From: a virus
IMG/VR virus record: IMGVR_UViG_3300009285_008862
Location: 1 to 29,993 of that record
Direction: 5' to 3' (one strand)
Length of the DNA stretch: 29,993 bases
Below are positions 1 to 20,775 of the stretch, one piece after another. Positions within the stretch are counted from its first letter, which is position 1. Each line of letters starts with the position of its first letter. Under the pieces are notes generated by a model. That model searched no databases. It was not told the origin of the DNA and worked only from the letters and a program-made list of their open reading frames with translations. The translations under genes were made by a program, and so were the position numbers.

Positions 1-599
1 AACAGTGTACGGGCGGAGGTCGCGTTTGTCGTGTTTGAGACAAGAACATTATCGTCTGCTCCCGCCGTTATCGCACCGGAGGAGAGAGTGCCGGGGCCAA
101 GATCAAGGTTTACATTCCAAACAGGAATTGTCCCATTAGACTGAAGAACGGTTTGGTTTGCTCCTACGGTGAGTCCTGTAATGGTATTTGCCGTTCCCGC
201 GTACAAAAGACCACCCTGAGTGTACGTGTCGGCAAACGTTGAGGTTGTCCATGCCGGGGCAGTCCCAGAAGAACGCAGAATTTTGCCCGCCGTACCGATT
301 GTGAGTTTTGATAAAACCGTTCCGGAGGCGTAGTAGGGTAAGTCCCCCGCAGCCCACGAGGAGAGTCCTGTGCCGCCGTAAGCGGTTGTCAGAGGATTGG
401 TAAGGGTAAGGGTTGCGAAAGAACCAATCCCACCAACAAGTAACCCGCCGGTGAAATGTCCTCCCCCCGTGACGGTGAAGGTGGAATCAAGCGTTGACCC
501 CACTTGGAGAGAAGAATCGGCTCGAATAGTCTTGTAGCGAATTTGCCCAAAGGAAAGGCTCGCGCAGAATAGGAGAAATATGACACTCAGTGTTTTCAT
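1..599 (-). CDS. Tail fibre-like protein with N-terminal signal peptide (3' part cut by window edge)
   Basis: The reading frame is open from the ATG at 599-597 to the window edge (about 199 codons seen), so the C-terminus is missing. The N-terminus MKTLSVIFLLFCASLSFGQ is a typical short Sec signal peptide with a likely cut before Q. The body is low in charge and rich in G, T and S. It carries the pattern common in phage fibre and structural proteins: TTAYGGTGLSSWAAGDLPYY, then LTIGTAGKILRSSGTAPAW, then a second round (QGGLLYAGTANTITGLTVGA, TVLQSNGTIPVW). I infer a trimeric beta-rich fibre stalk near the receptor-binding end. The start overlaps the stop of the giant protein by 4 bases (ATGA), so it is probably translationally coupled and late expressed. 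A signal peptide on a fibre is odd. A host-derived secreted protein is the alternative. Confidence 0.72.
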   Translation of the reverse strand, partial: MKTLSVIFLLFCASLSFGQIRYKTIRADSSLQVGSTLDSTFTVTGGGHFTGGLLVGGIGSFATLTLTNPLTTAYGGTGLSSWAAGDLPYYASGTVLSKLTIGTAGKILRSSGTAPAWTTSTFADTYTQGGLLYAGTANTITGLTVGANQTVLQSNGTIPVWNVNLDLGPGTLSSGAITAGADDNVLVSNTTNATSARTL

Positions 600-3500
600 T
601 GTGGTTGTATAAACCCTCTCATTCGTGCCCTCTGTTCTTGATTCATTCTCCGTAAGGCCTCTATTTGTTCCTTGCGCTTCATGGAGCGAAAACGCGATTC
701 ACTCATTTCCACACCCTGAGAAAGAACTGCTTTGAACGCCTGCCTCGTTTCGGGCTCCCTTTTCCCTTTCAAGGCATCGGAGGCAATCATTTTGATAAGC
801 CTCTGAAGTTCCTGTCCCTTTTCCGTTATTCCCCCATACTCTGATAAGTCCCTCAAGAGGAAAAGCGACTTCATGGCTTTGGCTGCATCTTCAAGGGTGT
901 CCCGATATTTCTTATCGGCGCTGTTCTCCACCTTCAGTCCTGAACGGGATTCCCTCTTTGCGCGCTGAAGTTCCTCATAGAATCTCTCCACCGTCTTTGA
1001 TCCCGTTCCTTCAACACCTCCCCTTCGGAACAGTCCGGGTCCAATAACGGGAAATTCTGACATGCCCTCACGCTTCTTCCGTTCATCGCCTGCAATACCC
1101 TCAACTGCCGAAATAAGGTCAGAGGAAGCCCCGCCTCCGAGTGCTCTCACCAAGTGATCGACCCTGCGGGGACTGATACTCTCTGGGAATTGCCTGCCTA
1201 GGAATTTCGCCACTTCGCTTGTGTAAGGCCCAAATTGTTCGCCGGGGGCAAGATCCTGCTCAGCTCGGGGCACAATCGGCTTATCGAAGAAATCAATACG
1301 GTTCTGCCATTGTTCCTTTACCGTCTGAAGGACATGGGGAAGGTCTGCTGGGTTCGATGTTTCAACGATATGCCCGATTGCGGCTTTGACTCCTTCGGGG
1401 TCTTTCCGGTACCACGAATCAAAAATAGCTTCCGGCATGACACTGAAGAAATTGCCCCATTCAAACGCACGGGGGATTTTGAGCATTTCATTCCCAACGG
1501 GAAAATGCCAGTAGAGAAACTTCTCCCTGTCCGGCATATCCTTGTACCATTCTTCATCCTTGTGTTGCCACCAGAGAAGAAGTGTTGGAATTGTAATGGT
1601 TGTCAAGGCACGAACACTGGCACGGGCTGGGTGATCGCGGAGCGTCCGGGCAAAGGAGCGCGTACCTTGGATATTGGCATTGAAAAAGGGAACCATCTGA
1701 TTGATAACTTTCCCCGCTCGCCCGCCGGCGGTGAAGTCCACCGTCACCTGTTTTCCTGCGAGTCCAAGTTCGACCGCCTGATCGAAGGTTAGGGGCGATT
1801 GTTTATCCCATCCGATCTTTTCAGCGATAAGGGAAATTTCAGCCACACGAGGAGCCGATTCAGTTACCGAGAGGAGTTCTCTCACCGCTTCAATGGGTGA
1901 AGAAACGATCCTCACGGCCTTCCCTTTGAAAAGTCCTTTGGCGACTTTCCGTGTAATGCCAATATCAGCTCCTAATGGCTGTGCCATATTTACACCCAAG
2001 CGGTAGAACACATCAAAATTATCCGTCTGTTTCCAGAGCCTTCTGGGGTTTGCCGCCTCTGCCATTGCCGAGGCCCATGCAGCGGCGAGTTTTGCAGGGT
2101 TCTTTTCCGAGCGCGTTTGCTGAATGAACGTCTGCACATCACGCGCCGGGTTCGTGACAAGCGAGAATGCAGCCCGGAGCCCCGTTGTGCCCAAGCGGAA
2201 AAGCCGCGTCGGGGCCGCAAGAAACATATCGGCAACCTTTGGCAGTCGGTACAAATCCACACCTTCAAGCACGCGGTAGAGTTCAGGATCGACTTGGAAC
2301 CACCGGAGTTTCCCCTCTTTCATTGCTGGAATAATCGGATCGCCACCACTGGGAGGCCGCTTCATGGGGCTAAAGAGCGTCATCAATCCATCCACTTCAA
2401 TCCCGCTTACATCGGCTCCTTTTTTCTCAAGTTGTCGGACAATCTCACTTAGTTCCTTACTCACAGGAACCATATCACGCGGGATTTCTTCAACGAATCG
2501 GCCCATGCCTTCCACATCGGAGAGTTTGATAACCGAGTCCAACACTTTCCGCTTGTGAGCCATCGAGATCATCTGTTGTGCATTGGCAATCATCTGGGGG
2601 AAAATGTCTTTGACACGAAGGCCGGAGCCTTTGAATTTCTTGAGTGCATTCCCCGCTCCTCCTTCTCCCGGTACTCTTTCAGATTCAAGAGCACGTTGCA
2701 GGGGCACGTAGTTATCAGATTCCGACATGATCTTTTCAATGGAAGGAGCAAGGTCGGGAACAGCCTCCTTCACATAGCGTAAAATCCCGTTGTTCCAGTC
2801 ATAGACTTTCTGAGCCGCGAGTTCAAATTCCGGACTTGCCAGTTTGGCAACGATGAAATCAGCATCGGCCTTTGTCATGCCAGGATTCATTCCCTTTGCA
2901 AGTCGTTCCTGCGACCGCCGGGCCCACAGGTACTTGGTAAAGTCTTCCTTCCTCCCGCGTACGATTGAAGAGATTTCCTCCAACGGCGGCCCTACTTTGT
3001 TCCGGGCAAAATCCAACATCCCGTCATAAACCATGTAATGAACCGTGGCCGGGGCATTGCCTCTCAGGTAACTTGCGACCTTAAAGGGATCCTCTGACGG
3101 CGTGAGTTTCACACCTCGCCTTTCGGCTGCTTCAACAAGTCTTTGAAGCGGTGTGAATTCGTCAACCATCTGATACCCTGTCTTCTCACGAATAGTCTGC
3201 CATACCTTGCTCAAGCGTTCAGTAACCGTCGGGCCTTTATCCAAGTTCGCCTCGGCTCTTTGAATTGCTCCCTCTTTTCGGTATGCGTCCGCGGTTTCCT
3301 TTGCCTTTGCAACGGCCTCGGCTATTTTTTCATTCTTCGCGAGAATCTCTTGAAAATGGCGGTACATATTCGGGGCAACCGTGGCCGCATCATCGCGGGT
3401 CAAATAGTGCCTCATGAATTCCGCGAAACCTTCGCTTGTGTAGTCGCCCGCGGGCTTTGAATCGCCGTAGAGTTTTCTCCCGAGCTTGAACAGTTCAGCC

Positions 3501-6187
3501 CTTACCTCACGGGGTGCTCCTCCGAGCGCCTTTGCCGTACTTCCTACTTCGCTGTAAAGAATCTTCTGAAGTGCATGAGCCGCTTCATGGGCAGCCGTTG
3601 GGATATTGTTCGATGCACGGAGGCGGATCACTTCCGGCTTAACCTTGAAAACACCCTCTGCCTTCTGGCGAAATCTCCCGGTACGAATTCTCACATCCCG
3701 GCCAGCGGCTTTCATAATGTTCGCAATGGAGGAAATAACGGCACTTGAGCTTACTTTTGTAGCCTCAAACCCCGTTACTGCCTCAGTTTCTAAGGGCATT
3801 CGCATTGCATCGCTGACCGTCGCTCCGTCAAAAACCTCTATCGCCTCCTTATCGCTTCGGATGGGGTCTGAAAGAGTTTTCCCCCAGAACTTCCCTGATT
3901 CTTCGGCTTCAAAAAGTTCCTCTTCCTTCGGCACTTCTGCCTTCTTCTCAAACATCGTCCCTTCAACTTGTTCCTTCAAAGGAATGTCAGACTTAATCCC
4001 GCCAAGTGCTTCCTGAGTTCTCTGCTCAGAAATCAATACGCCCTGTTCACCGGCTTTTGTTTTCTCGAATCTGACCGCTTCGCCCGCGGGTTTCTGGGAA
4101 AGGAATTCATCCAGCTTCCCACCTTTCCAAGCGTCGATCATTCCTCCGTAAATGTCTGACGGCGGTATCTGCCCTGCATCTCCCCTTTCGGCTCCAAAGA
4201 GAAGTTCCTCATGGAGTATCTTCTTTAGCCTTTCGACCAAAACACCCTTATCCTTGCCCTTGTCAATTTTGATCTTCTCAAGGGCTTCGATAATGCGCTG
4301 TTTGTTTGCCCCCACTTCTCCCCACCATGGGGGATAGGTATTGATCTGACCGCCTCCCAAATGGCCTACAACTTCGGACTCTGACGGGAATTCTCCCGTT
4401 CTGACAAGTTTCGATCCTACGAGTTCATTACTGAAGCCGGGTATTTCGCCTTGCACTTCATCGGCCTTTGCCCTGATTTCATCCGATACGGGCGTAGGAA
4501 TTTCATGTAATGGGCGTTCTGCAACCTTCTCGTCAACTGTGATTGGTCTCTGAAGGCGCTTTTCAATTCTCGCCGCGTCCATAGCCTCGTGGGGACGGCC
4601 TTCTTGCTTTGCCACATAGCCCTCAACCTGTTCTCTCAGGAGTTGCGCCTGAAATGCAGTCTTCATATCCTGCGCTTGAAGGGCTTTTGCGTTTTCCTGC
4701 TTGTACTCATCCCAAACCGCTTGAGACTGTTCCTGAGTGAATCCCTCGCCTAACTTTACGGCTTCTTGCGTATTCTTCACCTGATAGCTTTCAGCGGGGA
4801 TATTGGTAGGCTTGCCGACTTGGACTTCCTCTCCTGCCTTCGGAGCCGATTTTTGAGCAAGGTCAGGATAGTCTTCAAGAACTTCGGGCGGAACGAGTTT
4901 GCCTTCGGACAGGGCTTTTTTCACAAGATCGTGATGCCCCGTGCGAAGTTCCGGTTCACCCTTCAATGAAAAGTATTCGCCCCCCTTGTCAATAAACCCG
5001 CTTTCTGTCGGCAAGCCCCCACGTTGTGCTTTTTGCACAATCTCTGCCGGCACTTTTGACCAATCATGTATAGCTCCCGTTTTGTACACTTCGTTGCCAA
5101 TCTTGAATGCCGCTTCAATTCCAAGTCTTGTACGATTCTCAACTTGAAATTGCTCCCTTGTCATCTCCCACGGTTGTTTCTCACTCACTTTCGGCTTTGC
5201 TGTGAATTCCTCGTACGCCCTTGCAAGATCGGCCTCGGAGAGTTTCGATACCTCACCGAACCTCGTCATGGTATCGGGGCCGAGTTCCTTCACCATCTTC
5301 TTCTTGAAGGAGATAGGGATTTCCTGTAATTCCCCTGCCGTCCTGAGTCCTTCCGGTGCGGGAGTGGGAGGAACCTCTATGCTTTCCTGAACTTTGACTG
5401 GTAATGCCTCTGGCTGTGCCTTTCCGGTTTCTTTGACACCTTCACCTCGCCCGAGTGCAGTTCCGCCTTCAGGTTCGACTGCTGGGATGATGTCAGCGGG
5501 CTTGACGCGCTCAGTAAGTACCTCACCTGCTTTTGCGACTTCACCTTTGGCATGTTTGCCTCCGAATAGTTTTGCTCCTAACATTAACTGCGTCACGAGT
5601 TGTGTGAGATTGGAAACGCCTTGAAAAGCAGTAAGAGCATCCTGTTTCTGCTTCTCAGGGGCTTGTACAGATTCGATGATCGTCTTAATTGGATCAAGAG
5701 CCCTCTGCGTCAGTTCACCAACAGCCTTAAACGGAAGGGCGGCAACATCGGCGACATATTCCCCGCCAGGGATTTGTCTCGCCGCTAAATCAGCCATAGC
5801 AAAAGGAAGCGCCGCGAGTTCACCCAACCCCGTAAGAGTCCCCGCCCCCGTTTTGATCCCAGAAGCAATCGGAGAGCCAGGCATCGGCTTTTGTGCTTCG
5901 GCAATCGTTTTGATAGGCGTTGCCACGAGATCAACCAAAGGCATACGTCTATAAAAATCACGGGCGAAAATTGTTCCAGCGCCCGCGGCTCCCTTCATCT
6001 GCTCCGGAGAATAAGTCTGAGCAAGGATTTCCTCCGTACGATCCACCTCCGGCTCTTTCACCTGCGGCATATCAGAAAAGTCAAAGAGAACAGCCGTCTT
6101 TTTGGGCTTTTTCCCTTCCTTTTCCTGATCTTGGGAATTGAGATCGGAGAAGTCGAATACTGGTTTTTTCTTCTTTCCGCCGTTCAT
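596..6187 (-). CDS. Giant polyvalent / internal virion protein with zinc-peptidase motif
   Basis: This 1863-residue protein matches the design of phage polyvalent proteins that are packaged and injected with the DNA. The N-terminus has two copies of an FDFSD motif (residues 11-16 and 35-40) in Lys-rich sequence, followed by hydrophobic Gly/Ala stretches. Near residues 430-450 it has ALSEGKLVPPEVLEDYPDL, a segment recurrent in polyvalent proteins. H867-E-A-A-H871, with E919 or E923 in TSEGFAEF as possible third ligand, looks like a zincin metallopeptidase. From about residue 1325 it has LGTTGLRAAFSLVTNPARD and later VPFFNANIQG, resembling the LPD38-type domain of phage polyvalent proteins. The C-terminus is rich in Lys and Arg. 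Gene position after two small internal-protein candidates and before the fibre suits an ejection protein. Peptidase activity is inferred from the motif only. I see no lysozyme or transglycosylase motif I can defend. Confidence 0.8.
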   Translation of the reverse strand: MNGGKKKKPVFDFSDLNSQDQEKEGKKPKKTAVLFDFSDMPQVKEPEVDRTEEILAQTYSPEQMKGAAGAGTIFARDFYRRMPLVDLVATPIKTIAEAQKPMPGSPIASGIKTGAGTLTGLGELAALPFAMADLAARQIPGGEYVADVAALPFKAVGELTQRALDPIKTIIESVQAPEKQKQDALTAFQGVSNLTQLVTQLMLGAKLFGGKHAKGEVAKAGEVLTERVKPADIIPAVEPEGGTALGRGEGVKETGKAQPEALPVKVQESIEVPPTPAPEGLRTAGELQEIPISFKKKMVKELGPDTMTRFGEVSKLSEADLARAYEEFTAKPKVSEKQPWEMTREQFQVENRTRLGIEAAFKIGNEVYKTGAIHDWSKVPAEIVQKAQRGGLPTESGFIDKGGEYFSLKGEPELRTGHHDLVKKALSEGKLVPPEVLEDYPDLAQKSAPKAGEEVQVGKPTNIPAESYQVKNTQEAVKLGEGFTQEQSQAVWDEYKQENAKALQAQDMKTAFQAQLLREQVEGYVAKQEGRPHEAMDAARIEKRLQRPITVDEKVAERPLHEIPTPVSDEIRAKADEVQGEIPGFSNELVGSKLVRTGEFPSESEVVGHLGGGQINTYPPWWGEVGANKQRIIEALEKIKIDKGKDKGVLVERLKKILHEELLFGAERGDAGQIPPSDIYGGMIDAWKGGKLDEFLSQKPAGEAVRFEKTKAGEQGVLISEQRTQEALGGIKSDIPLKEQVEGTMFEKKAEVPKEEELFEAEESGKFWGKTLSDPIRSDKEAIEVFDGATVSDAMRMPLETEAVTGFEATKVSSSAVISSIANIMKAAGRDVRIRTGRFRQKAEGVFKVKPEVIRLRASNNIPTAAHEAAHALQKILYSEVGSTAKALGGAPREVRAELFKLGRKLYGDSKPAGDYTSEGFAEFMRHYLTRDDAATVAPNMYRHFQEILAKNEKIAEAVAKAKETADAYRKEGAIQRAEANLDKGPTVTERLSKVWQTIREKTGYQMVDEFTPLQRLVEAAERRGVKLTPSEDPFKVASYLRGNAPATVHYMVYDGMLDFARNKVGPPLEEISSIVRGRKEDFTKYLWARRSQERLAKGMNPGMTKADADFIVAKLASPEFELAAQKVYDWNNGILRYVKEAVPDLAPSIEKIMSESDNYVPLQRALESERVPGEGGAGNALKKFKGSGLRVKDIFPQMIANAQQMISMAHKRKVLDSVIKLSDVEGMGRFVEEIPRDMVPVSKELSEIVRQLEKKGADVSGIEVDGLMTLFSPMKRPPSGGDPIIPAMKEGKLRWFQVDPELYRVLEGVDLYRLPKVADMFLAAPTRLFRLGTTGLRAAFSLVTNPARDVQTFIQQTRSEKNPAKLAAAWASAMAEAANPRRLWKQTDNFDVFYRLGVNMAQPLGADIGITRKVAKGLFKGKAVRIVSSPIEAVRELLSVTESAPRVAEISLIAEKIGWDKQSPLTFDQAVELGLAGKQVTVDFTAGGRAGKVINQMVPFFNANIQGTRSFARTLRDHPARASVRALTTITIPTLLLWWQHKDEEWYKDMPDREKFLYWHFPVGNEMLKIPRAFEWGNFFSVMPEAIFDSWYRKDPEGVKAAIGHIVETSNPADLPHVLQTVKEQWQNRIDFFDKPIVPRAEQDLAPGEQFGPYTSEVAKFLGRQFPESISPRRVDHLVRALGGGASSDLISAVEGIAGDERKKREGMSEFPVIGPGLFRRGGVEGTGSKTVERFYEELQRAKRESRSGLKVENSADKKYRDTLEDAAKAMKSLFLLRDLSEYGGITEKGQELQRLIKMIASDALKGKREPETRQAFKAVLSQGVEMSESRFRSMKRKEQIEALRRMNQEQRARMRGFIQPQ

Positions 6188-7218: not shown

Positions 7219-7233
7219 GAAACGTTCTCCTTG

Positions 7234-7971: not shown

Positions 7972-7974
7972 GGC

Positions 7975-8475
7975 TTAGTTCCTCATCATTGCGAAAACGT
8001 GAAGTGTACCTGCAAACTGTATTTCCGGGAACGTGATAGTCGAAGGCGTTTTGTTGGAATCTCCCGGGTCAATCACCACTTGAAAACTTGTCCCGTCAGT
8101 CAAAAAGGCGGCCACATTATACGGATTGTCTGTAAAGGGACTTGGGAACGGCGTCGGGATTGTGACAAGGATACTCACTCCCGCCACAACCGCCGTCGAA
8201 AATACTCTCGGAGGCTGTGATGTTGATGGTGTTGACGGCACAACGGGAGGCGAAGAAGGAGTCGCCCCTGCGATCACCGAGGAGGAGGAAAGCACGATCC
8301 AGTATTTCCCCGAGTTCATGTACACAACCTTCGAGAAAGGATTCGCCGGGTTTGTGACAATGACAATCCCATTTTTCGGCATACTGTTCACCGGAGGAAG
8401 CGCGGAAAGTTCCTGCACCGCAGGAGCGGCATACTCAAGCACTTCCTCTGCATCTGCCGAGGTGAACTTTTTCAT
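7975..8475 (-). CDS. Small virion-associated protein, function unknown
   Basis: This is a 166-residue protein with no signal peptide or membrane segment. The N-terminal half has short strands (GIVIVTNPANPFSKVVYMN, then KYWIVLSSSS). A Pro/Ser/Thr-rich linker (about residues 70-90, containing SSPPVVPSTPSTSQPP) follows, then a second beta-rich part. The start overlaps the stop of the nozzle-like gene by 4 bases (ATGA), so the two are translationally coupled. I infer a small tail accessory protein from that coupling only and do not recognise the family. Confidence 0.5.
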   Translation of the reverse strand: MKKFTSADAEEVLEYAAPAVQELSALPPVNSMPKNGIVIVTNPANPFSKVVYMNSGKYWIVLSSSSVIAGATPSSPPVVPSTPSTSQPPRVFSTAVVAGVSILVTIPTPFPSPFTDNPYNVAAFLTDGTSFQVVIDPGDSNKTPSTITFPEIQFAGTLHVFAMMRN

Positions 8476-10697
8476 ATCCTTCTCCCGCGGTTCAAGATCG
8501 TTCCCCCAAGTTCAAAGCCGTAGAATTTCGTGCAGTAGGTCCCTGTCAGGTCATAGTACAGTTTCCCCGCCGACTTGATGGCACTTGACATGCTGTCCGT
8601 GATATAGCGAACCACTCCGGTTTGCGTCGCGGCTTGGGCCACTGTCGCCGTTGCCGCCGCGTCCGGGTCCACAAGTGAATGCGTGATGGCAAAACTCGTT
8701 ATGACAAGAGCATTAATCCACAAAAACCGTGGACGCAGTAAGGGTATCCCATCGGGGAAAACGAAGGTCTTTGTCCTGAGTTGGCCGGAAATTGCGGCAG
8801 AAGCCGGGTAGGTATCGATCCCTGCCGTCCCTGTTGGCTCCGTGTACCATCCTGCGGTGATCGTCACAGAGAGGATCATCTTTCCCGCATCGGCCCCATA
8901 CTGACGGGAGAAAGCGGAAAAAGCACTCGCCGTTCCTCCGGTGGAGAAATTGTACCACGTATCGGCTTTCGTATCGTAGATCAAGAGGCGGTCTGCGGAA
9001 CTGATGACAACGGGAAAAACAACCCATTGATCGAATCCCTTGACCGGGCCTTCATGGTAGAAGGCTTGCATGAACGAACTCACTGTTCCGAGTGTGGACT
9101 GAAACAGCACCGACACATCCTCCGGCAGGGAATTCGTGCCCTTGTACTGGTAGATATGCCCCCGGTAGCCGAAGAAAACCCCTTTGGGTGAGGCAATGAG
9201 CGTATTCGGATCTGAACATCCCTTACCGATCACAATTTTCTGCACACTCCAGTTTTCAGGCTCCCCCCTGGTATAGAGTTTGTAGATATTATTCGTTTTG
9301 AAAATGAGTATTCCATCCCCGTCATCGACAAGTCCGGTAATCACATCCCCATCGTCGGGGTATACGTCGATGAAACTCAGAGCGAGGATAGTTGAAGGCT
9401 TCGCATTTTCCGACCACATGATCCTGCTTCCATACGTTGTCGCCGAAGCCGAGGGTAAGGCCGCGTTATTGATGATCGTCGCATCGCTGCATGTGCTGAC
9501 GAATAATACGGGATCAACAACAGTTGAATAGCCCTTGGGAACCGGGTTCGGCCAGTAGGTTGTGTAATCCAGATAGTAGGTCGATCCACCTGCAACCGTG
9601 CGATAGAATTCAATGCCGGTCACGTTGGAAATTCCCGTTGGGAACTTCGCCGTAATGTGAACATACATCGTACCGTCGCCGCCAACAGGAGTTGTGCCTG
9701 TAACGTGGGTAAAGAAATCCGAGGGTTCGCTCTTGGAACCGTCGCTGAAGACAAGAACCATTTTATACTTGTATGTGGAGCTGATGGTAAGTCCCGCAGT
9801 TCCCGCCACATCCAGAAACGTGATCTCCGCCGCATTCGACTGAAAGGTTGGGAAGTTGTAGGGTGTCAACTTCACGTTCCCCAAAAAGAGCCGGTCGTTT
9901 TTTATGAGAGGATAAAAAGCCGATGTCGGGACGCTGATGTAATTAACCGTATTTGAAAGGTCGAGCGAGGTATCACCTGCGGTATCGGTATAGGTCGTTG
10001 TCGTTGCCCCGATAACCGCTACAAGGTAGAACGTGCCATCTCCTACCTTCGTGCGGTAGAGATATTTGTCTGAAGTCGTGGGGAGGACTGCCAATGCCAC
10101 TGATCCCGCTACTCCGCTTGCAATGGTGGCATGAAGGCACTTGGAAGGCGGAGAGAAATTCCCGTTGGAATCCTTGTATGCAAGCGTGTAGTAGTATTCT
10201 CCCGCGGCCATGGAGCCGCCCGTAATCGCAGGTGTGACCGTCACCGCACTCACATCGGGCTTGGTGATGGCAAGATCGGCCGTTGTCGTAAGGTCCGTCT
10301 GAAAGGGGGCATCAAAACCGTTGACGCAGTAGAGTTTCCCGCTATACTGACAAATCCTCATGATCTTGCCTGAGGTAAGACTCCCTTTCACCGAGGACCA
10401 AGCACCCGTACCGGCGAGAGACTTGTAAAAGCTCGCCCCTTGAACACCGAGGATGTAATCACTTGAACCTATCAGAACATCCGTCATAGAAATGAGTGCC
10501 CCACCGAGTTCTGTATCGACGTTGTAATTCTGGAAAGGATTGCGAAGGCAGGGCACTCCACCGACTTGATCCAGGACGTAATTTTTCAGGATCGCAAGCT
10601 CAGACTCATCCAAAAGTTCGGGCGAGGCAAATTCATTCACCCGCTTGAAGCCTTTCACCGAAATTGTTGCCTTATTTCCATTCACGGAAACGCCCAT
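8472..10697 (-). CDS. Tail nozzle / stabilisation-like protein (beta-propeller type)
   Basis: This 741-residue protein is almost entirely beta-rich. The early segment resembles nozzle or packaged-DNA-stabilisation proteins of short-tailed phages (ELAILKNYVLDQVGGVPCLR; then repeated strands with SGKLYCVNGFDAPFQTDL). A fibronectin-like insertion at about residues 150-240 contains AAGEYYYTLAYKDSNGNFSP, and a second sits at about 290-375. The core LFLGNV, IMWSENAKPSTI, DDGDGILIFKTNNIYKL and ASPKGVFFGYRGHIYQYKG is the recurring blade pattern of these proteins. I infer that it forms the tail tube tip below the adaptors. No signal peptide is present, in contrast to the four genes just upstream in transcription. 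The ATG at 10697 lies five bases past the stop of the beta-helix gene. Confidence 0.68.
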   Translation of the reverse strand: MGVSVNGNKATISVKGFKRVNEFASPELLDESELAILKNYVLDQVGGVPCLRNPFQNYNVDTELGGALISMTDVLIGSSDYILGVQGASFYKSLAGTGAWSSVKGSLTSGKIMRICQYSGKLYCVNGFDAPFQTDLTTTADLAITKPDVSAVTVTPAITGGSMAAGEYYYTLAYKDSNGNFSPPSKCLHATIASGVAGSVALAVLPTTSDKYLYRTKVGDGTFYLVAVIGATTTTYTDTAGDTSLDLSNTVNYISVPTSAFYPLIKNDRLFLGNVKLTPYNFPTFQSNAAEITFLDVAGTAGLTISSTYKYKMVLVFSDGSKSEPSDFFTHVTGTTPVGGDGTMYVHITAKFPTGISNVTGIEFYRTVAGGSTYYLDYTTYWPNPVPKGYSTVVDPVLFVSTCSDATIINNAALPSASATTYGSRIMWSENAKPSTILALSFIDVYPDDGDVITGLVDDGDGILIFKTNNIYKLYTRGEPENWSVQKIVIGKGCSDPNTLIASPKGVFFGYRGHIYQYKGTNSLPEDVSVLFQSTLGTVSSFMQAFYHEGPVKGFDQWVVFPVVISSADRLLIYDTKADTWYNFSTGGTASAFSAFSRQYGADAGKMILSVTITAGWYTEPTGTAGIDTYPASAAISGQLRTKTFVFPDGIPLLRPRFLWINALVITSFAITHSLVDPDAAATATVAQAATQTGVVRYITDSMSSAIKSAGKLYYDLTGTYCTKFYGFELGGTILNRGRRI

Positions 10698-10702
10698 GAA
10701 AT

Positions 10703-12457
10703 TCAGTTCCTTTGTATAAAAATCACGCTTCCATTTCTTACCGCCGTCACGGTGATGTCGAGAGGACTGCCTTGGAGGGCTTCGTCGGCTGTGAATCTGA
10801 AAACATAGTTCCCAGTCTTCCCTCCGAGCCTCACTGTCGCGGTCAGCAGTCCAAATTCATCTGATGTACTCACGGTGTCGATGAATGTCTGTTCCCATGC
10901 ACCCGAAGGGACTGAGAAAACTGACCATACTCCATGATGCCCTGATTTCCTGATGTCTGCGCTATCGGTAATCGCGGTCAGGGTAATGCGCGAGAGAATT
11001 GTCTGTGTCACCCCGTTGCCGGAGAGGACACTGAGTGTGTCACCTGCGCCACCCGCCTCATTCATCGTTGAACCCGCCTCATATCCTTTCGCCGATTGAA
11101 ATTCCGCGAGTGTCGTATAGGTTGTTTCCGCAGGCCATTTACCGACATTGAATTTTTGCCCGGTTCCGAAAAAGGCATTGTCGATCGAGGTCGTCGTCCC
11201 TGACTCCTGAAAATCATCAAACCTCGTATTTGCCGCGCCCGTGCATGTCACCGTATTATTATGGAATGAAACCGTTCCCCCACCGGAAGAATTAAGAGCC
11301 GTTTGACCGCTTGCTATCGCTGTGACTGTATTGCTGTAAGCCTCGTTTGCTCCGACAAATGATGTGATTTGAATAGCCGAACCCCCCGCGATAGTCGTGG
11401 TCACAGTGTTATTATGAGCGACCCAGCCCTTCCCATTGAGCAAAATCCCAAACTGCGTCCCGTTGACCGTGCAATATCGAATCGTGTCATTGACGTTATG
11501 GTATGTATCAAGCCCGGCCTGCGTTACGTTTGTAAATTGGCAGTACTCAATCACCATCGAGGTGTCTTCTTGCACTCCAACCCCGGCCTGCTCTGAGCCG
11601 CCAAAGTTAATCCCTAAAATCGTGCTCACAACATTGGAAATAGTATCACGCCGAATAGCGTTGCCGGTACCATTCAGAAAATAAATGGATGTGTAACCCG
11701 CCGAATCAATCGTGCAGGAATCAACGATGCAGTTCGTATAGTTGCCCGTAAAGAAAATCGAAATCCCTGTTGTATTTTGTATCGTAACGTTGCGGACAAT
11801 CATATTGTTGACATTCCCCCCGCTTAAACCTTTGATCGCCGTCCCGATATTGCGAAATTCGATGTCCCTGATTGTGACGTAAGACCCTTTGATGAAATTC
11901 GCTTCAAGGAAAACATGAACTACTGGAGAAGCGCCGTCCGAGGTCTTCACCCATGTTGTGTCATTGCCCCAGCCGAAACTTGATGCTGTCATCCCATCCA
12001 AGAACTTGTCAAGGCTATCGGCGTTGTTCAGGTAGAAGTGAAGCTCACCCTGGTTGGCGTTTGTCATCGCAACAGCATTTTCATAACCGGAGGCAGTCGT
12101 CACCGAGCCTGAAAAGGTCTGCCAGATACTGTCGCGGCCCGGCGTTGCCGTCCATACCGCTCCAGTCAAGTCACCATAGATAATCGGCTTCTCACCCGTC
12201 CCGTAAGCACCGAAGACAATGCGGTCCGCCTCAGTTGCGGTCGTTATAGTCTTCGAAAGTTCGCCGTAGAAGCTGTCCCCCCTGTTGAACAGAATAGAAT
12301 CCCCCGCGACGAAATTCGATCCCGTAACTTTATTCGGTGTTTTCCATGAGGTTCCTGTTGAGGTTCCGTTTGCCGCATCGCTTCCCGCCGAAGAGACATA
12401 GTACGTCGTCTGCGCGTGAAGCAAGAAGGGGAATATCAGGGCAAGAATGAGTTTCAT
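10703..12457 (-). CDS. Secreted-type right-handed beta-helix protein (tailspike-like)
   Basis: This 584-residue protein begins with the signal peptide MKLILALIFPFLLHA before QTTYY. The mature start (YYVSSAGSDAANGTSTGTSW, then FVAGDSILFNRGDSFYGEL) is the usual opening of secreted bacterial right-handed parallel beta-helix proteins. From about residue 190 to 410 there are repeated Asn/Thr/Val/Ile turns such as NMIVRNVTIQNTTGISIFF and NCIVDSCTIDSAGYTSIYF. The last ~110 residues look like an Ig-like domain. Phage tailspikes and polysaccharide lyases share this fold, so surface glycan binding or cleavage is plausible, but I see no identifiable catalytic site. It sits between signal-peptide genes and the nozzle gene, with its ATG touching the preceding TAA. 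Capture from a host secreted protein is a real alternative origin. Confidence 0.72.
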   Translation of the reverse strand: MKLILALIFPFLLHAQTTYYVSSAGSDAANGTSTGTSWKTPNKVTGSNFVAGDSILFNRGDSFYGELSKTITTATEADRIVFGAYGTGEKPIIYGDLTGAVWTATPGRDSIWQTFSGSVTTASGYENAVAMTNANQGELHFYLNNADSLDKFLDGMTASSFGWGNDTTWVKTSDGASPVVHVFLEANFIKGSYVTIRDIEFRNIGTAIKGLSGGNVNNMIVRNVTIQNTTGISIFFTGNYTNCIVDSCTIDSAGYTSIYFLNGTGNAIRRDTISNVVSTILGINFGGSEQAGVGVQEDTSMVIEYCQFTNVTQAGLDTYHNVNDTIRYCTVNGTQFGILLNGKGWVAHNNTVTTTIAGGSAIQITSFVGANEAYSNTVTAIASGQTALNSSGGGTVSFHNNTVTCTGAANTRFDDFQESGTTTSIDNAFFGTGQKFNVGKWPAETTYTTLAEFQSAKGYEAGSTMNEAGGAGDTLSVLSGNGVTQTILSRITLTAITDSADIRKSGHHGVWSVFSVPSGAWEQTFIDTVSTSDEFGLLTATVRLGGKTGNYVFRFTADEALQGSPLDITVTAVRNGSVIFIQRN

Positions 12458-13153
12458 TTAATTTCCCTTGATCGGCACGACTGTTTCCGTTGCAACATTA
12501 TCGCCACTGAAAGTGAAAGCAAAGGCATTTGTGCCTTCGTCATCCCTGTAACCCGTAGCGATAAGGTTGATCTCGGAGAGTTTCGTTGTTGGCGCATCAG
12601 CCGTTGTCGTGACCGCCGCCCATTTCCTCACAATGGCCAGCCCATAATCATTCGCCGCAAGCGTTGCTGTCGCAGTGATAGTTGAGCCGAAGCCTTGACT
12701 CCCCGTTCCCACGGTTCCGGTTGGCGCTGCCTGGTTCACCCCGCTGAAACTTGCCGCGAAAAGAGAAACCGCAACACTCGACGCATTGTACATGTAAAAC
12801 TTATGTGAGCCTGAAGTTGGATTGACAAGTCGGAAAATGTAGATGTCACCTGTGTGGTCAACCAACGTCATCTTGACCGCCGAGCCAACCGCATCCCCAT
12901 AGTACACAGAGTCCATGAGAGCGCCCGCATTGGACATGACAATGGAAATTGTCAAGAGACCATTCGAAAGGCTTGAAGTTGTGAAGCTCACAGATGAATC
13001 CGGTAGGGTTGAGGGTGTTTCATCCACCGTCGCTGAGTCAACAAGGGCTACCTGCACAGCCCCTGATGCCCTTCTCGATACCGGGCTACTATTCTGCGCC
13101 TGAACTGAGGTTACTATCAGGCACATTATTAGAATTTTCTTAAGATGAGCCAT
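12458..13153 (-). CDS. Signal-peptide protein with Ig-like beta-sandwich domain
   Basis: This is a 231-residue protein with N-terminus MAHLKKILIMCLIVTSVQA and a predicted cut before QNSS. The body has the recurrent secreted-domain pattern in which a small-residue strand (LLTISIVMSNAGALMDSVYY) is followed by GDAVGSAVKM, a strand with LVNPTSGSHKFYMY and then FAASFSGVNQAAPTGT. I have seen this layout in bacterial surface proteins and some phage structural proteins. I infer a decoration or adhesin-like component. Its start overlaps the previous gene's end by 14 bases, and its TAA directly abuts the next ATG, so the genes are one unit. Specific function is unknown. Confidence 0.6.
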   Translation of the reverse strand: MAHLKKILIMCLIVTSVQAQNSSPVSRRASGAVQVALVDSATVDETPSTLPDSSVSFTTSSLSNGLLTISIVMSNAGALMDSVYYGDAVGSAVKMTLVDHTGDIYIFRLVNPTSGSHKFYMYNASSVAVSLFAASFSGVNQAAPTGTVGTGSQGFGSTITATATLAANDYGLAIVRKWAAVTTTADAPTTKLSEINLIATGYRDDEGTNAFAFTFSGDNVATETVVPIKGN

Positions 13154-13772
13154 AGTGATACCTGATAACGACGATGAATTTATTCGAGGCTGTTGTGACC
13201 GCGGTGAAGGTGAGCCAGATGAAGTTATTCACCGGGACTGTTGCATTGTTTAAGGTCGATTGCCACGCGCCGATATATTCGTCCGTCGTTGCCGCGGGCG
13301 ATGTAATGATTGCCGTTGCCGAGGCATCCGTCCACAAACTATCGTTGTAGTAGTAGGCTGCGGTCAGATTGACCGTTGTCGGGCCCCCTACGGTATGGAT
13401 GGAGTCAATCGTAATCGCACTTGGAAGCGGTCCTGCAATCCTTACCTGATGCCCTGCAAGTTGAAGAGTCGAATCAAGTTCCAATTCGATCTGCTCAGTC
13501 ACAGACCCCAGGCTATCTGTTGCACCCCAAAATGCTTTCTTCCCAAGAAGGCCATTTGTCTTGATTTCCCTCGCATCAAGGGAGTCTCCAATCTCAGTTC
13601 TGAGCACATCTGCCGTATCGTGGATCGTTGCCGTTGAGGTCATCTCAGCGCGCAGGACATTGGCCGTATCGGAGATCTGCTGGGCTGTCGCACTATTGGC
13701 TGAGGAGGTTGGCCACTGCGCATAGATAATCCCGGGAGAGAGAAGAACAAGCAAGAATAGGAGTTTTTTCAT
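13140..13772 (-). CDS. Signal-peptide protein with short coiled-coil repeats, virion module
   Basis: This is a 210-residue protein with N-terminus MKKLLFLLVLLSPGIIYA and a predicted cut before QWPT. Residues ~33-75 hold two repeats of the type DTANVLRAEM / DTADVLRTEI followed by GDSLDAREI, which should form an oligomeric coiled coil. The rest is beta-rich (ITIDSIHTVGGPTTVNLTAAY, then IWLTFTAVTTASNKFIVVI). A coiled-coil stalk plus beta head resembles a small trimeric fibre, which is an inference. The start overlaps the stop of the 181-residue gene by 4 bases, and the 3' end overlaps the next gene by 14. Confidence 0.58.
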   Translation of the reverse strand: MKKLLFLLVLLSPGIIYAQWPTSSANSATAQQISDTANVLRAEMTSTATIHDTADVLRTEIGDSLDAREIKTNGLLGKKAFWGATDSLGSVTEQIELELDSTLQLAGHQVRIAGPLPSAITIDSIHTVGGPTTVNLTAAYYYNDSLWTDASATAIITSPAATTDEYIGAWQSTLNNATVPVNNFIWLTFTAVTTASNKFIVVIRYHYGSS

Positions 13773-14314
13773 CGTCGGGCCTCTTCGATTTCAAGAACGA
13801 TCCTGAACCTCCCGGATACCTTCGGTTGGTAAGCCCCAGTTGCAACAAGTCTTCCCCATAACGCTTGCCAGACACCCAAACGCGAATTAGACGAAAAGGG
13901 CATCGGATGATCCACAATGTTCTGGTACGCGATTGTTGAGTTTGAACCGTTCCCGGTACTTGCCAAGGTGAAGTCTATTGTCCCAACAACAAGTGAGTCC
14001 AGAGTCATTGAATTCACAAAGGCCGCGTTATCCGCAACCTTCCCCGTGCCGATGGAATCCGACAACAAGATTAACCGGAATGTGGCATTTGTCGTATTGG
14101 CTGTATCCGCGGAAAGCCGAGCAGAGATAATCCTTCCCGATAAATACCTTCCTGCGGGGACAAGTAACCTCACAAGCGAGTCTGCTCCCGAGACGACATC
14201 TCCGGCCGCGTATGCCGTGGCATTGGCAGGCCGTGTGATCTCAGCGGCAAAGCGCGCAATCTGTGCATTGGCGCAGAAGACCGCAAGCACCATGAAAAGA
14301 ATGAGTTTTTTCAT
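13769..14314 (-). CDS. Signal-peptide virion protein with RPANATAYAAGDVV motif
   Basis: This is a 181-residue protein. N-terminus MKKLILFMVLAVFCANA precedes QIARF, a classic Sec signal peptide. The mature start contains ITRPANATAYAAGDVVSG, a motif recurrent in phage structural proteins of tailed phages, followed by beta-rich sequence ending in RFRIVLEIEE. That phage motif makes it unlikely that the signal peptide simply reflects a host gene: a virion domain appears to be fused behind an export signal. A strong ribosome site (AGGAG) lies 4 bases before the ATG, which overlaps the adaptor stop (ATGA). I infer a head or tail decoration protein. Confidence 0.62.
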   Translation of the reverse strand: MKKLILFMVLAVFCANAQIARFAAEITRPANATAYAAGDVVSGADSLVRLLVPAGRYLSGRIISARLSADTANTTNATFRLILLSDSIGTGKVADNAAFVNSMTLDSLVVGTIDFTLASTGNGSNSTIAYQNIVDHPMPFSSNSRLGVWQALWGRLVATGAYQPKVSGRFRIVLEIEEARR

Positions 14315-15009: not shown

Positions 15010-15692
15010 TGTGTGGCCACCTCATTTGCCTGTTGTGGGGCTGCCTTCTTCTCGGATTCCGTTTTCAGGAAGTCCTCGAACGTGCTGTTGATGGCCCCGG
15101 AAATCATCGCATCCATCTTGGAAATATCCAGTGTTGGGTCTTGAATAGCCTTCACGTCATTGATCGCTTTTTGAACGACGTACATCTCAAATTCCACGGG
15201 AAGGTCTGATGTGGCTGAATCTGAGGCAAGTTCAGCTAAGACAGCGAAGTAATGAATCACCGCGCCCGTGATCGTACTCGGGAAAAGATGGATGTAGTTA
15301 TTGAGCCGGGTATAGGCCGCCTGCCGTTCGGTCGGGGCTTCAAAGGTATTGGAACACACCTTTTCAAAGCGTTCGGGCTCAATTTCCCTATTTGTTGAGC
15401 CGTTGTTAGTTGCGCCCGTGCAATCCAGCATCTTGATCGCCCGTGGAGATTCGAGCAAGTCTGTGGGGATGGCCGCGCGCGTGGTTGTAATCGCTCCAAT
15501 CGTTGAGGCTGAAAGCGAAAGGCTTGCGCTCTTTTCCCATTTCTTGTAACCAAGCCCGTTCAGTTTCGACTGGACGAACTTCAGGGCTTGATTGATGACC
15601 AGATTGAGCCTTACGAAAGGCCAGTCCTGATGCCCTTCAACGTGAGCGCCGATGGAAACCAGATCCCGGTATTGAGCCAGTGTCAGGGCCAT
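15006..15692 (-). CDS. Head-tail adaptor-like protein (second of three)
   Basis: I chose the ATG at 15692 (228 residues, MALTLAQYRDLV). It has GGAGG about 8-10 bases upstream, whereas the longer frame (to 15749) adds an unlikely His/Tyr-rich stretch without a good ribosome site. Helices (LNLVINQALKFVQSKLNGLG) precede strands with AAIPTDLLESPRAIKMLDC and then a YTRLNNYIHLFP strand pair. A C-terminal helix follows (FEMYVVQKAINDVKAI). This is the layout of connector adaptors that bind beneath the portal. The C-terminal tail is Lys/Gln-rich. A 61-base gap before it (15693-15753) holds the ribosome site and nothing else I can name. Confidence 0.5.
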   Translation of the reverse strand: MALTLAQYRDLVSIGAHVEGHQDWPFVRLNLVINQALKFVQSKLNGLGYKKWEKSASLSLSASTIGAITTTRAAIPTDLLESPRAIKMLDCTGATNNGSTNREIEPERFEKVCSNTFEAPTERQAAYTRLNNYIHLFPSTITGAVIHYFAVLAELASDSATSDLPVEFEMYVVQKAINDVKAIQDPTLDISKMDAMISGAINSTFEDFLKTESEKKAAPQQANEVATQ

Positions 15693-15753
15693 GTTACTTC
15701 CCCTCCAATCGAAATCCATATAAGCATGTGAAGCATAGTGTCCATACATAAAG

Positions 15754-16740
15754 TCATGGTGATTGATGAATAAATTCCAAAAAGGGCATTTTGCCGGACG
15801 AGCTGAGAATCAATGCTCCTCCCGCTGTAAAGGGATCGGGGAGCGCACCGTACGCGTGTGCTACCGATATGCCCATATTGATACCATCCACCGTGGATGA
15901 ATGAAGCTGTCGCCCAAGAAAATTATCGAATGGGTAAGTAGCATCCAGAGCACCAAGCGAAATAGAATTTTGCAATACAATCCCCACCCAAAAGGCATCA
16001 TCGTAGGGAATTGTGTATGGGAAAGGGGATTCCGTGATAAGGGCTGTAACACTTGTTGCTGAGTGCGTCACATCCAGCAAGAGACTCCCCGCGTACGGAT
16101 TCTGCGAGTAATCATTCGCCCACATTCCAAAATGACAAGTGTTATTGGATGAGATATTACACCGGAATTTCGCTCCGTAGAGGACCGTTCCCTTCTTGAA
16201 AAAATGCCTTGTTGCAAAAATGGTGTCTGCTGCAAAGGAAAAGGCTGCGCTCCTCATTCCGTTACAGAGCCCGTACCCGACATAAGAACTGACATTGTAC
16301 GGAGCGGTAAATGTCATCACCTTTTGTTTGACTGCATCCTTGTACCCTACTTTGGCATAAAGGTCATCCTGAATCGTAGGAGAAAAAACAACCGTCAGAT
16401 AGTAGGTATGCCCGGGAGTGTTATGGGCAGCGGCGGATTTCCCATCCTGGCCTCGAACCACAACGGCAACCGTATCGCTTGACACCGCGTGAGAATCGAT
16501 CCTCAGTGGCTCCGCGTTCGGGTCTTGAAGCGGTCCGGCATAGAGGCCATCCCAGAGAATGCCCATCAGGTATCCCCCCGTATAGACTCCGGTATTGATA
16601 AGGCTTCGTGTCAGAGTGGAAAGGTTGGCTCCCTGCCCCGTGGCAAGGGAAATGGACGTATCGGCAAGAGCGACCCCGCCGGAAGCAATCTGGAGGTTGA
16701 CGAGGGCTTGGGCCTTGAAATAGTCGCTGAAGTAGCTCAC
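15754..16740 (-). CDS. Phage structural protein with RGQDG attachment-type domain
   Basis: This is a 328-residue protein without a signal peptide. Residues ~15-120 resemble the N-terminal attachment domain found on many phage fibre, spike and tail proteins: ADTSISLATGQGANL, DPNAEPLRID, then TVAVVVRGQDGKSAAAHNTPG. The rest is a beta-sandwich-like region with FGMWANDYSQNPYAGSLLLD and DAFWVGIVLQNS, resembling carbohydrate-binding modules in composition. It sits between two adaptor-like genes and overlaps the preceding stop by 4 bases. A head spike or connector-attached fibre is my inference. Confidence 0.55.
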   Translation of the reverse strand: MSYFSDYFKAQALVNLQIASGGVALADTSISLATGQGANLSTLTRSLINTGVYTGGYLMGILWDGLYAGPLQDPNAEPLRIDSHAVSSDTVAVVVRGQDGKSAAAHNTPGHTYYLTVVFSPTIQDDLYAKVGYKDAVKQKVMTFTAPYNVSSYVGYGLCNGMRSAAFSFAADTIFATRHFFKKGTVLYGAKFRCNISSNNTCHFGMWANDYSQNPYAGSLLLDVTHSATSVTALITESPFPYTIPYDDAFWVGIVLQNSISLGALDATYPFDNFLGRQLHSSTVDGINMGISVAHAYGALPDPFTAGGALILSSSGKMPFLEFIHQSP

Positions 16741-17390
16741 TGGATAACACCTTGAGTGAGCTTGATGAACTTAGAAAATGCCTCTTGAGACTCTTGGGTG
16801 CGTTGATCCTTGGACAAGCACCGTGCAAAGGCGAACTCCACGATTGCCTCAACTGCGCTGTCCGGTATGACCGATGCCTGGGATGCACCAATGTCCGTTG
16901 GTTGTGTCAACACTCCGGCGATCCAAGCCGCAGCGTTATTCGTTGAGGCTGTTTCAAAGGTGATGACCGGATTGGCGAAGCGAATGTAATACTCTCCCGA
17001 GGCTATTGTCGCTACGAGAAAGGAATTCGCCGCCTTGAATTCTGAGGCCGGGCTGTGAAATCTCACCCTTGCCGGATACAGTGGACTTCCCGCGGCAGAG
17101 TTGTATTTTACCCAAACAAGTTCCAGTACCGTCCCCGTCAAGGAAGCCGTTGAAGCCCCTGAAGCGACTGTTGCGGTCTGCGTGCTGTACAGAGTTTGAA
17201 GCAAGGGCGAAAGTGGAATATCCTGATTCGGTGTGGCAAACTTTTTAGCCCGATAGACCCCGAGAGCAAGCGCAATCACCGCATTCTGGCCATCGGCTAA
17301 GGCCGCGTAAGCCTCTGCATCAGTCCAGAACGAGGCTGAGGCTTCATCAAGGAGTGTCCTAAGCCGAGCTAAGAGATTCGGGCCTGTCAT
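16737..17390 (-). CDS. Head-tail adaptor-like protein (first of three)
   Basis: This is a 217-residue protein. The N-terminus LLARLRTLLDEASASFWTDA, followed by AEAYAALADGQNAVIALAL, is a pattern common among phage connector/adaptor proteins: a helix, a WTD step and a Gln/Asn-rich helix. A beta-rich centre follows (STASLTGTVLELVWVKY), then a C-terminal helical pair (AVEAIVEFAFARCLSKDQRT). It is the adaptor candidate nearest to the portal and capsid genes, and overlaps both neighbours by 4 bases. It probably docks on the portal ring, by inference from family layout and position. Confidence 0.58.
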   Translation of the reverse strand: MTGPNLLARLRTLLDEASASFWTDAEAYAALADGQNAVIALALGVYRAKKFATPNQDIPLSPLLQTLYSTQTATVASGASTASLTGTVLELVWVKYNSAAGSPLYPARVRFHSPASEFKAANSFLVATIASGEYYIRFANPVITFETASTNNAAAWIAGVLTQPTDIGASQASVIPDSAVEAIVEFAFARCLSKDQRTQESQEAFSKFIKLTQGVIQ

Positions 17391-17809
17391 TCTGCGCTCA
17401 CAGGCCTTTTGGCTGCCGTGTTGGATTCCGTGACGATCTTCTGAATCTCAGGATCAACGGGAAGTGGCTGAGGCTGGGTCAAGCTCGAACGCGGGCCCGA
17501 GACAATGGGCTTTGAGGAGCCTTTGAGTTCGCCGTTCACTTTCCAAACCTCCCCATTCGAGAAGGGCCTGGATTCTTCGATCTCTTTGACTTCGATATCA
17601 CTTTTGGCGATAAAGACTCCGACAATCCCATTGGAGTTAAACTGGATTTTCTTCTTTCCGCCTTCGACCCAGAGGGTCAAGGCTTTTCCGCGTGATGCGA
17701 AAACGATTGGTTCAAATGTTTTTTTCGGCTGCTCAGGCCGCGGTGCTTCAGGCGGAGCTACCTGGTTGACTATTTCACCTACAACGGGGACTTTCTTTGT
17801 GCGTGGCAT
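17387..17809 (-). CDS. Small phage protein, Lys/Pro-rich, function unknown
   Basis: This is a 140-residue protein. The N-terminal 30 residues are disordered, rich in Pro, Lys and Glu, followed by a short beta part (GKALTLWVEGGKKKIQFNSNG, GVFIAKSDIEVKEIEESRPF) and a Pro-rich tail. No signal peptide or membrane helix is present. The ribosome site AAGGAGG lies about 6 bases before the ATG. Its place between a small post-capsid gene and the first adaptor suggests a head-completion accessory protein. I do not recognise the family. Confidence 0.5.
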   Translation of the reverse strand: MPRTKKVPVVGEIVNQVAPPEAPRPEQPKKTFEPIVFASRGKALTLWVEGGKKKIQFNSNGIVGVFIAKSDIEVKEIEESRPFSNGEVWKVNGELKGSSKPIVSGPRSSLTQPQPLPVDPEIQKIVTESNTAAKRPVSAE

Positions 17810-17818
17810 AGTTCCTCC

Positions 17819-18037
17819 TTATGAATTTGGAATTACATCATCTACCGCGTCCGCCGCTATCCATGCCGCATTCCAAGCAATCGTCTTAAAGTGAACGGGC
17901 TTGGGCATCGGGCTTTTGGGATGGATCATTACTTTCGTGTTGTCCATCATGAAATTGTAGGTGGCGTTAAACACCTTCCGGGCCAGATCCGACCATTTCC
18001 GCCACTGTTTCTTGGGGACACGATAAAGGTTTCGCAT
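17819..18037 (-). CDS. Small conserved-type phage protein after the capsid block
   Basis: This is a 72-residue basic protein. The pattern VPKKQWRKWSDLARKVFNA, then MMDNTKVMIHPK, then AWNAAWIAADAVDD resembles small proteins I know from many phage structural modules next to capsid genes, of unknown role. It is helix-rich. It lies just past the terminator at 18051-18079, so its expression depends on read-through or on an unrecognised promoter. Confidence 0.58.
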   Translation of the reverse strand: MRNLYRVPKKQWRKWSDLARKVFNATYNFMMDNTKVMIHPKSPMPKPVHFKTIAWNAAWIAADAVDDVIPNS

Positions 18038-18050
18038 ACGTATTACTCCC

Positions 18051-18079
18051 GAAAAAGAAAGGGGCGAGCCTCCGCCCCT
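18051..18079 (-). terminator. Intrinsic terminator after the capsid/decoration genes
   Basis: On the minus strand AGGGGCG (18079-18073) pairs perfectly with CGCCCCT (18066-18060) around a 6-base loop, followed by TTTCTTTTTC. This is a GC-rich 7-bp stem with a T tract, 9 bases past the stop of the 159-residue gene. It is probably partial, so that capsid mRNA is enriched over the downstream connector genes. Confidence 0.7.
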
Positions 18080-18087
18080 AACGTGAA

Positions 18088-18567
18088 TTAATGACCCCGC
18101 TTGTGAGCCACCAAGTAGAGATTGACTATGGTGTCTTCTTCATTTGGGGTTGAAACATCTGATCCAGTCAGCGACAAACGCGCGGTTTTGACTCCGTTTG
18201 TAGCGATAACGCCTACATAGGTCAGAACCTCGAGTTTTGCTTGTGTCGTATCGTTCACCGTTCCCAGTGTTCCCGAGTAGTTTGAACCATTATCAAACGA
18301 GCCAACCAGGATGGTCTTAAACTTCGGCACACCGACAACGCTTGTCGAACGAACCCAGCAATAGATGCTGTCGTACGGTGCGACGGAAAACTTAACGCTC
18401 GTCACCGTTGCGGCTGAATCGGATGTGAACGGGCTCCATGCTGTGACTTGCAGGATGTCAACGGTCTGACTCAAATTGTCACCGTAATTACTTACGGCAA
18501 CCGTCTGAGCATTCACCGTCAACACCAGCGTCATCAGAAGGGCCAAAACAAACATGATGCGTTTCAT
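18088..18567 (-). CDS. Signal-peptide protein beside the capsid gene (possible decoration protein)
   Basis: This is a 159-residue protein. The N-terminus (residues 1-20) has K/R at positions 2-3, then a long Leu/Met/Val core, ending VNA before QTVAVS: a good Sec signal peptide. The mature part is beta-rich (VTSVKFSVAPYDSIYCWVRS, FKTILVGSFDNGSNYSG, KTARLSLTGSDVS). The ribosome site AAAGGA lies about 10 bases before the ATG, 21 bases past the capsid stop. Position would suit a head decoration or cement protein. The leader is hard to reconcile with cytoplasmic head assembly, so a phage-encoded exported protein is the alternative. Confidence 0.6.
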   Translation of the reverse strand: MKRIMFVLALLMTLVLTVNAQTVAVSNYGDNLSQTVDILQVTAWSPFTSDSAATVTSVKFSVAPYDSIYCWVRSTSVVGVPKFKTILVGSFDNGSNYSGTLGTVNDTTQAKLEVLTYVGVIATNGVKTARLSLTGSDVSTPNEEDTIVNLYLVAHKRGH

Positions 18568-19776: not shown

Positions 19777-19795
19777 TTAGAATCTACGTCCTGTT

Positions 19796-20740: not shown

Positions 20741-20775
20741 GATTGTACAAACTCCTTTGAATGAATGATTGTTGG

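Follow-up and report, generated by a model that had tools for sequence, protein, structure and literature searches.

Signal-peptide leaders followed by glutamine in the virion operon of a tailed phage: possible export of outer virion appendages

Introduction

Tailed phages are normally described as making all of their virion proteins in the cytoplasm. Filamentous phages are known to do otherwise; their coat proteins are Sec-dependent and carry a cleaved leader, and the virion is assembled in the inner membrane and extruded without lysis. Here we describe six proteins with Sec-type leaders that are encoded in the late virion operon of a tailed phage, represented by the complete IMG/VR record IMGVR_UViG_3300009285_008862 (29,993 b, hereafter the window). 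Each leader ends directly before a glutamine (Q at +1; leader+Q). Sec passage and leader cleavage of virion proteins, which these leaders suggest, would be shared with the filamentous phages. Unlike those, the window phage is a tailed double-stranded DNA phage with cytoplasmic head assembly.

The closest described leaders are those of the Bacteroidetes Q-rule substrates of signal peptidase I, which have the same type I leader and Q at +1 (Bochtler 2018, PMC5837995; Szczesniak 2023, PMC10653852). Those substrates are periplasmic, outer-membrane and secreted proteins of the host, whereas the carriers in the window are phage virion-module proteins. Bacteroidetes typically follow the Q-rule, with a mean of 71%, as does Ignavibacterium album with 77%, while most Chlorobi are below 9% (PMC5837995). 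In Porphyromonas gingivalis, pyroglutamate shields exported proteins from degradation (PMC10653852). Phage-encoded leader+Q proteins have likewise been noticed in P. gingivalis phages; one phage group, the proposed Nixviridae, has five Q-rule genes whose function was given as unknown (PMC10367356), and these proteins were remarked on again later (PMC10653852). Unlike the P. gingivalis cases, the genes in the window are located in a virion operon and have cultured analogues labelled as virion proteins by tandem mass spectrometry (MS/MS). These analogues belong to the Cellulophaga phages phi10:1, phi18:3 and phiSM, whose leader+Q genes of fibre or pectate-lyase type are recorded as virion proteins; sequence homology to the six is not established, and the GenBank records seen do not mention leaders. 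We found no paper that ties Q-rule leaders to virion proteins in a search that left most subscription journals and preprints outside.

Six leader-bearing proteins of the virion operon

Translation of the window gave six minus-strand open reading frames (ORFs) that start exactly at 599, 12457, 13153, 13772, 14314 and 18567, by which we name them. Their N-termini are MKTLSVIFLLFCASLSFG before Q (mature start QIRYK) in 599, MKLILALIFPFLLHA before Q (QTTYY) in 12457, MAHLKKILIMCLIVTSVQA before Q (QNSSP) in 13153, MKKLLFLLVLLSPGIIYA before Q (QWPTS) in 13772, MKKLILFMVLAVFCANA before Q (QIARF) in 14314 and MKRIMFVLALLMTLVLTVNA before Q (QTVAV) in 18567. The features of Bacteroidetes Q-rule substrates, namely a basic n-region, a hydrophobic core, small residues at the cut site and Q at +1, are present in all six. 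A home-made scorer of the n, h and c regions, which looks for a basic n-region, a charge-free hydrophobic core and a small-residue cut site, called signal peptides in these six of the 32 complete ORFs and in no others, with Q at +1 each time. When the Q bonus was removed from the scorer, so that residue +1 was ignored, the cut still fell before Q in 5/6. In shuffled controls, in which the N-terminal 60 residues of each of the 32 ORFs were permuted, the expectation was 0.14 signal peptides (mean) and 0.003 signal peptides with Q. With the same scorer, control phages of Caulobacter, Vibrio and Rhizobium gave one signal peptide and none with Q among 116 ORFs, and P22 gave two calls, neither with Q. 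Thus, the six Sec-type leaders ending before Q that a first-pass annotation of the window had pointed out are confirmed, as is its statement that the capsid, portal, adaptor-like, nozzle and ejection-type proteins are leaderless, since the scorer calls no leader in them. None of the six has a lipobox Cys at +1 in place of Q, and none matched a Por secretion/C-terminal domain of the type IX secretion system (T9SS) in Pfam; the C-terminus of 599 lies beyond the window.

The main genes of the window are all on the minus strand. The late virion operon holds all six leader+Q genes among head, neck and tail genes, and the leader+Q proteins of the window are confined to it. By their coordinates, several neighbouring genes overlap by a few bases, so proteins with and without a leader are probably expressed from a single operon. 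Protein 599 (3..599, minus strand, as for all virion genes of the window below) is fibre-like, with YGGTG/TAG repeats and a weak virion structural match in PHROG; it extends past the window, so that its first 199 residues are visible, and a stretch of 43 residues is 58% identical to a phage protein that adjoins stabilization/ejection genes. Protein 12457 (10703..12457) is a right-handed beta-helix resembling a tailspike (Pfam PF13229 Beta_helix, E 2.7e-9, residues 213-376). Its matches in unannotated gut scaffolds were set aside, because the ORFs of these scaffolds looked cellular by eye. Protein 13153 (12458..13153) has a mature part of 212 residues, low in Lys and rich in Thr/Ser, and weakly matches a PHROG of minor tail type; tblastn against INPHARED gave no match. 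Protein 13772 (13140..13772) has a helical-looking segment and then a Thr/Ser-rich domain, fibre-like by eye. Protein 14314 (13769..14314) consists of a domain with the motif RPAN(A/T)TAYAAGD, predicted to be jelly-roll-like from a fold model. Protein 18567 (18088..18567; mature part 139 residues) is encoded directly after the capsid gene and is by this position a candidate decoration protein; its fold model was unusable (predicted template modelling score, pTM, 0.33). Appendage domains are thus seen in 12457 (beta-helix), 599 (fibre-like repeats) and 14314 (jelly-roll-like model), with nothing firm for 13153, 13772 and 18567. The leader carriers look like the surface-exposed or unassigned proteins of the operon.

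Leader-bearing virion proteins of cultured Cellulophaga phages

We took virion status from the MS/MS labels in the GenBank records of Cellulophaga baltica phages (KC821618 for phi10:1, KC821620 for phi18:3 and KC821616 for phiSM). Eight proteins have both a leader+Q and an MS/MS structural label: gp091-gp094 of phi10:1, gp085-gp087 of phi18:3 and gp08 of phiSM. The capsid, the portal and the remaining MS/MS proteins of the three phages have no leader. Pooled over the stretches fetched and counted by hand from tables, leader+Q occurred in 8/45 MS/MS virion proteins and in 4/173 other coding sequences (Fisher p = 5e-4); phiSM by itself was not significant.

An N-terminal domain is 83% identical between phi10:1 and phi18:3 over 118 residues, leader included. 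The two phages belong to different families, which indicates at the level of sequence that leader and N-terminal domain move together from one phage to another. Many Cellulophaga phages have the N-terminal domain of phi10:1 gp093, again together with its leader, and several of these gp093 relatives are annotated as pectate lyase. Phage Ingeline_1 has three consecutive leader+Q genes. Two leader+Q proteins of pectate-lyase type have no MS/MS label, phiSM gp09 (L117 7154-10438) and phi10:1 gp095 (L123 47388-48878); these could be free enzymes, or could have been overlooked by proteomics.

We found no leader+Q virion protein in Cellulophaga phi14:2, Nonlabens P12024L, Flavobacterium 11b and Bacteroides B40-8; in phi14:2, none of the 17 MS/MS proteins scored had a leader. 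Because four Bacteroidota phages lack the pattern, the trait is optional among phages of this phylum, and the idea that every Bacteroidota phage uses leader+Q is ruled out. The first-pass annotation had called six export signals in one late operon unexpected. This stands in that the pattern is absent from other phages of the same host phylum, but not as a singular case, since it recurs in unrelated phages.

Members of the 14314 family with and without a leader

Homologues of 14314 with leader+Q were found in three IMG/VR contigs (L002, L026 and L179; 32-37%) and, twice in tandem, in a likely provirus, L115. The L115 copies are encoded in genome G250, towards one end of a chromosomal contig of 320 kb; a tRNA-Leu is close by, and two more leader+Q genes are adjacent. 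This region with four leader+Q genes (L115:11594-15236) is likely a provirus fragment. Leaderless homologues were found in L182/L183 and in Rhizobium phage TM30. In L182/L183, the homologue is encoded between a capsid gene (phrog_1357) and neck genes, in a head/neck module, and the scorer called no leader+Q protein anywhere in the stretch. In TM30, a different N-terminal domain replaces the leader, and the gene is near tail-fibre genes. The capsid family phrog_1357 is common to L026, which has leaders, and L183, which has none.

Since the same domain occurs with and without a leader in different phages, the sequences indicate that 14314 combines a variable leader with a body that is a domain of phages. 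Homologues that start downstream of the leader had been named in advance as grounds for regarding the leaders as spurious. Such homologues do exist for 14314, in L182/L183 and TM30. However, they occur only in phages without any leader+Q in the stretches read, which argues for gain or loss of the leader and not for an artefact. The deep forks of the family tree are weak, and gain and loss are not separable in it. The family was found in none of 193 Omnitrophota genomes and in 1/395 genomes of the Ignavibacteriae phylum. The AlphaFold2 model of 14314 is jelly-roll-like (pTM 0.71; predicted local distance difference test, pLDDT, 69.5). Among viral folds, its best matches are tailed-phage proteins (TM about 0.64), and in the PDB it matches jelly-roll coats and lectins with low TM.

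Terminase relatives and genes behind the capsid gene

A terminase scan of IMG/VR gave 24 related loci. Sixteen of these 24 contigs encode 25 leader+Q proteins in all, and 23/25 are downstream of the terminase by hand count. Thus, a search of related phage genomes, as the first-pass annotation had proposed, shows that the pattern recurs. Besides the terminase and the 14314 protein, no protein of the window matches the 24 loci at E 1e-3. The structural modules are unlike in the relatives; that is, modules differ while the leader habit persists. The terminase (23187-24692) is at most 55% identical to its IMG/VR relatives, and their portal and capsid have no BLAST similarity to those of the window (18589-22997). 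From these comparisons, module exchange between the window phage and its terminase relatives appears to be strong. Scans of IMG/VR with the capsid, the portal, 18567 and alignment A4 gave no new relatives.

In L002, L003 and L026, the gene directly behind the PHROG-identified capsid gene encodes a signal-peptide protein (L002:8958-9497, L003:16567-17028 and L026:5860-6324). In L179, such a gene (L179:6421-6990) comes soon after the gene in the capsid position, a placement less certain than in the other three. These proteins have about 150-190 residues and are cut before Q in most cases, according to the scorer. Their capsids fall into three groups: phrog_1328 in the window (weakly similar to L179, E 6e-5), phrog_334 in L002/L003 and phrog_1357 in L026. 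In an alignment of five, 18567 and the post-capsid proteins are 18-26% identical, and their homology is unproven. It is possible that the small signal-peptide proteins behind the capsid gene are a class of exported head-decoration proteins.

Host of the window phage

With the same scorer, Q at +1 was found in 44% of the signal peptides of G250, in 47% of those of an Ignavibacteriae genome and in 4% of those of an Omnitrophota genome. The first two genomes belong to the Bacteroidota/Ignavibacteriota phylum, and their values support the assignment of the leaders to the type of that phylum. The provirus L115, which belongs to a relative, sits in G250. Based on the leaders, the host of the window phage is most likely a Q-rule bacterium.

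The last ~560 b of the window (29434-29993) contain a truncated nuoN fragment that is 81% identical to an Omnitrophota metagenome-assembled genome. The fragment ends inside a phage ORF (CPDCQGEGK-type) at a short shared sequence, and the junction is probably a chimeric assembly join. We reject an Omnitrophota host, which the nuoN identity had suggested, in view of the 4% Q at +1 there and the short sequence that the join shares with the phage ORF.

Virion assembly in two compartments and alternative explanations

We favour, with modest confidence, the explanation that the six proteins are outer virion appendages, of head-decoration and tail fibre or spike types, which pass through the Sec pathway of the host and are added to virions at lysis or later. 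The six would be expressed in the late operon alongside the core virion proteins and exported via host Sec. Signal peptidase I would cut the leaders just before Q, and the new N-terminal Q would be capped as pyroglutamate, as is usual in Q-rule hosts, where this protects periplasmic proteins. A Q behind the cut site is useful only if the leader is cut, which favours cleavage. The proteins would then fold outside the cytoplasm. Heads and tails of tailed phages form in the cytoplasm; because of this, appendages on the outside would have no access to them until the membrane opens. At lysis, the inner membrane would open, and the exported proteins would come into contact with tails and DNA-filled heads, bind to the completed particle and so become part of their own phage's virion.

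Several points weigh against this explanation. Export and cleavage are deduced from the leaders, cytoplasmic assembly of the core would make docking after lysis a required step, and 4/6 proteins are without a homologue of known function. Furthermore, the four Bacteroidota phages named above lack leader+Q virion proteins, and the MS/MS labels are GenBank notes without N-terminal peptides, so that secreted phage proteins could have co-purified.

The leaders with Q imply true export also if the six are destined for the host surface, where they would mask receptors or exclude other phages, with no or incidental membership of the virion. The P. gingivalis phage Q-rule proteins were proposed to modify outer membranes (PMC10367356). 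We regard this as rather unlikely here, as the genes are inside the virion operon beside capsid and neck genes, L183 has one of the domains without a leader in its head/neck module, eight comparable proteins carry MS/MS virion labels, and neither a lipobox nor a T9SS tail domain was found in the six. Of the options listed in the first-pass annotation (exported surface proteins, fibres assembled outside and membrane anchors), the eight labels favour virion fibres or appendages, and pure receptor masking loses ground. A leader that stays on the proteins as an anchor in inner membrane or particle, with export incomplete or absent, would permit cytoplasmic assembly, and cleavage is itself inferred. 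This is distinctly improbable, because in all six, and in relatives as well, Q stands right after an A/G/S cut site, which is most easily explained by signal peptidase cutting there.

The beta-helix of 12457, the pectate lyase annotation of Cellulophaga relatives of phi10:1 gp093 and a Laminin_G_3 leader protein in L026 would all suit secreted depolymerases or adhesins that are free in the medium and loosen biofilm or capsule before lysis. However, MS/MS labels put phi10:1 gp093 and phi18:3 gp086 in virions, and the post-capsid and 14314 proteins have no enzyme domain in PHROG or Pfam, which makes this role very improbable for the six. We give hardly any credence to the idea that 5' ends of host genes for secreted proteins were recently captured, with export as a by-product. 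The leaders do resemble host ones, and Bacteroidota chromosomes encode many secreted proteins to draw on. But leader and mature domain stay together across divergent phages, and the bodies match phage families and folds; this conserved pairing and the phage-type bodies largely refute capture. The doubt that the first-pass annotation had expressed about capture was therefore justified, as L182/L183 and a Rhizobium phage have the 14314 domain without a leader.

If the explanation by exported appendages is true, virion assembly gains a post-lysis step, which is testable in the cultured Cellulophaga phages, and the host signal peptidase and glutaminyl cyclase become part of phage maturation. Q-rule phage proteins listed as unknown would gain a suggested function, and leader+Q in a late operon would point to appendage genes, and to a Q-rule host, in phages not yet annotated. 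With more reserve than conviction, we extend this to a class of tailed phages in Q-rule bacteria, in which heads and tails would form in the cytoplasm, and cut and pyroglutamate-capped appendages, the post-capsid protein included, would form outside the inner membrane and be joined to them at lysis.

Other genes in the window

The leaderless virion genes are in the same operon. The major capsid protein is encoded at 18589..19776 (phrog_1328 major head protein, E 2.7e-15), the portal protein at 21057..22997 (phrog_156, E 1.8e-38) and the large terminase subunit at 23187..24692 (phrog_2, E 6.7e-24; 31-55% identity to the 24 IMG/VR relatives). A nozzle or internal-virion-type protein (8472..10697) matches phrog_3287 and phrog_511, both head and packaging, at E about 1e-6. 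A polyvalent ejection-type protein of 1863 residues (596..6187) matches Pfam LPD38 (E 2.9e-32) and phrog_9854 (E 4.5e-42). The adaptor protein has no leader either, and the virion-type proteins 15006 and 16737, recognised by PHROGs or Pfam, are likewise leaderless. Apart from these, a radical SAM protein with a weak SPASM match is encoded at 26160-27140 and adjoins a methyltransferase-like gene.

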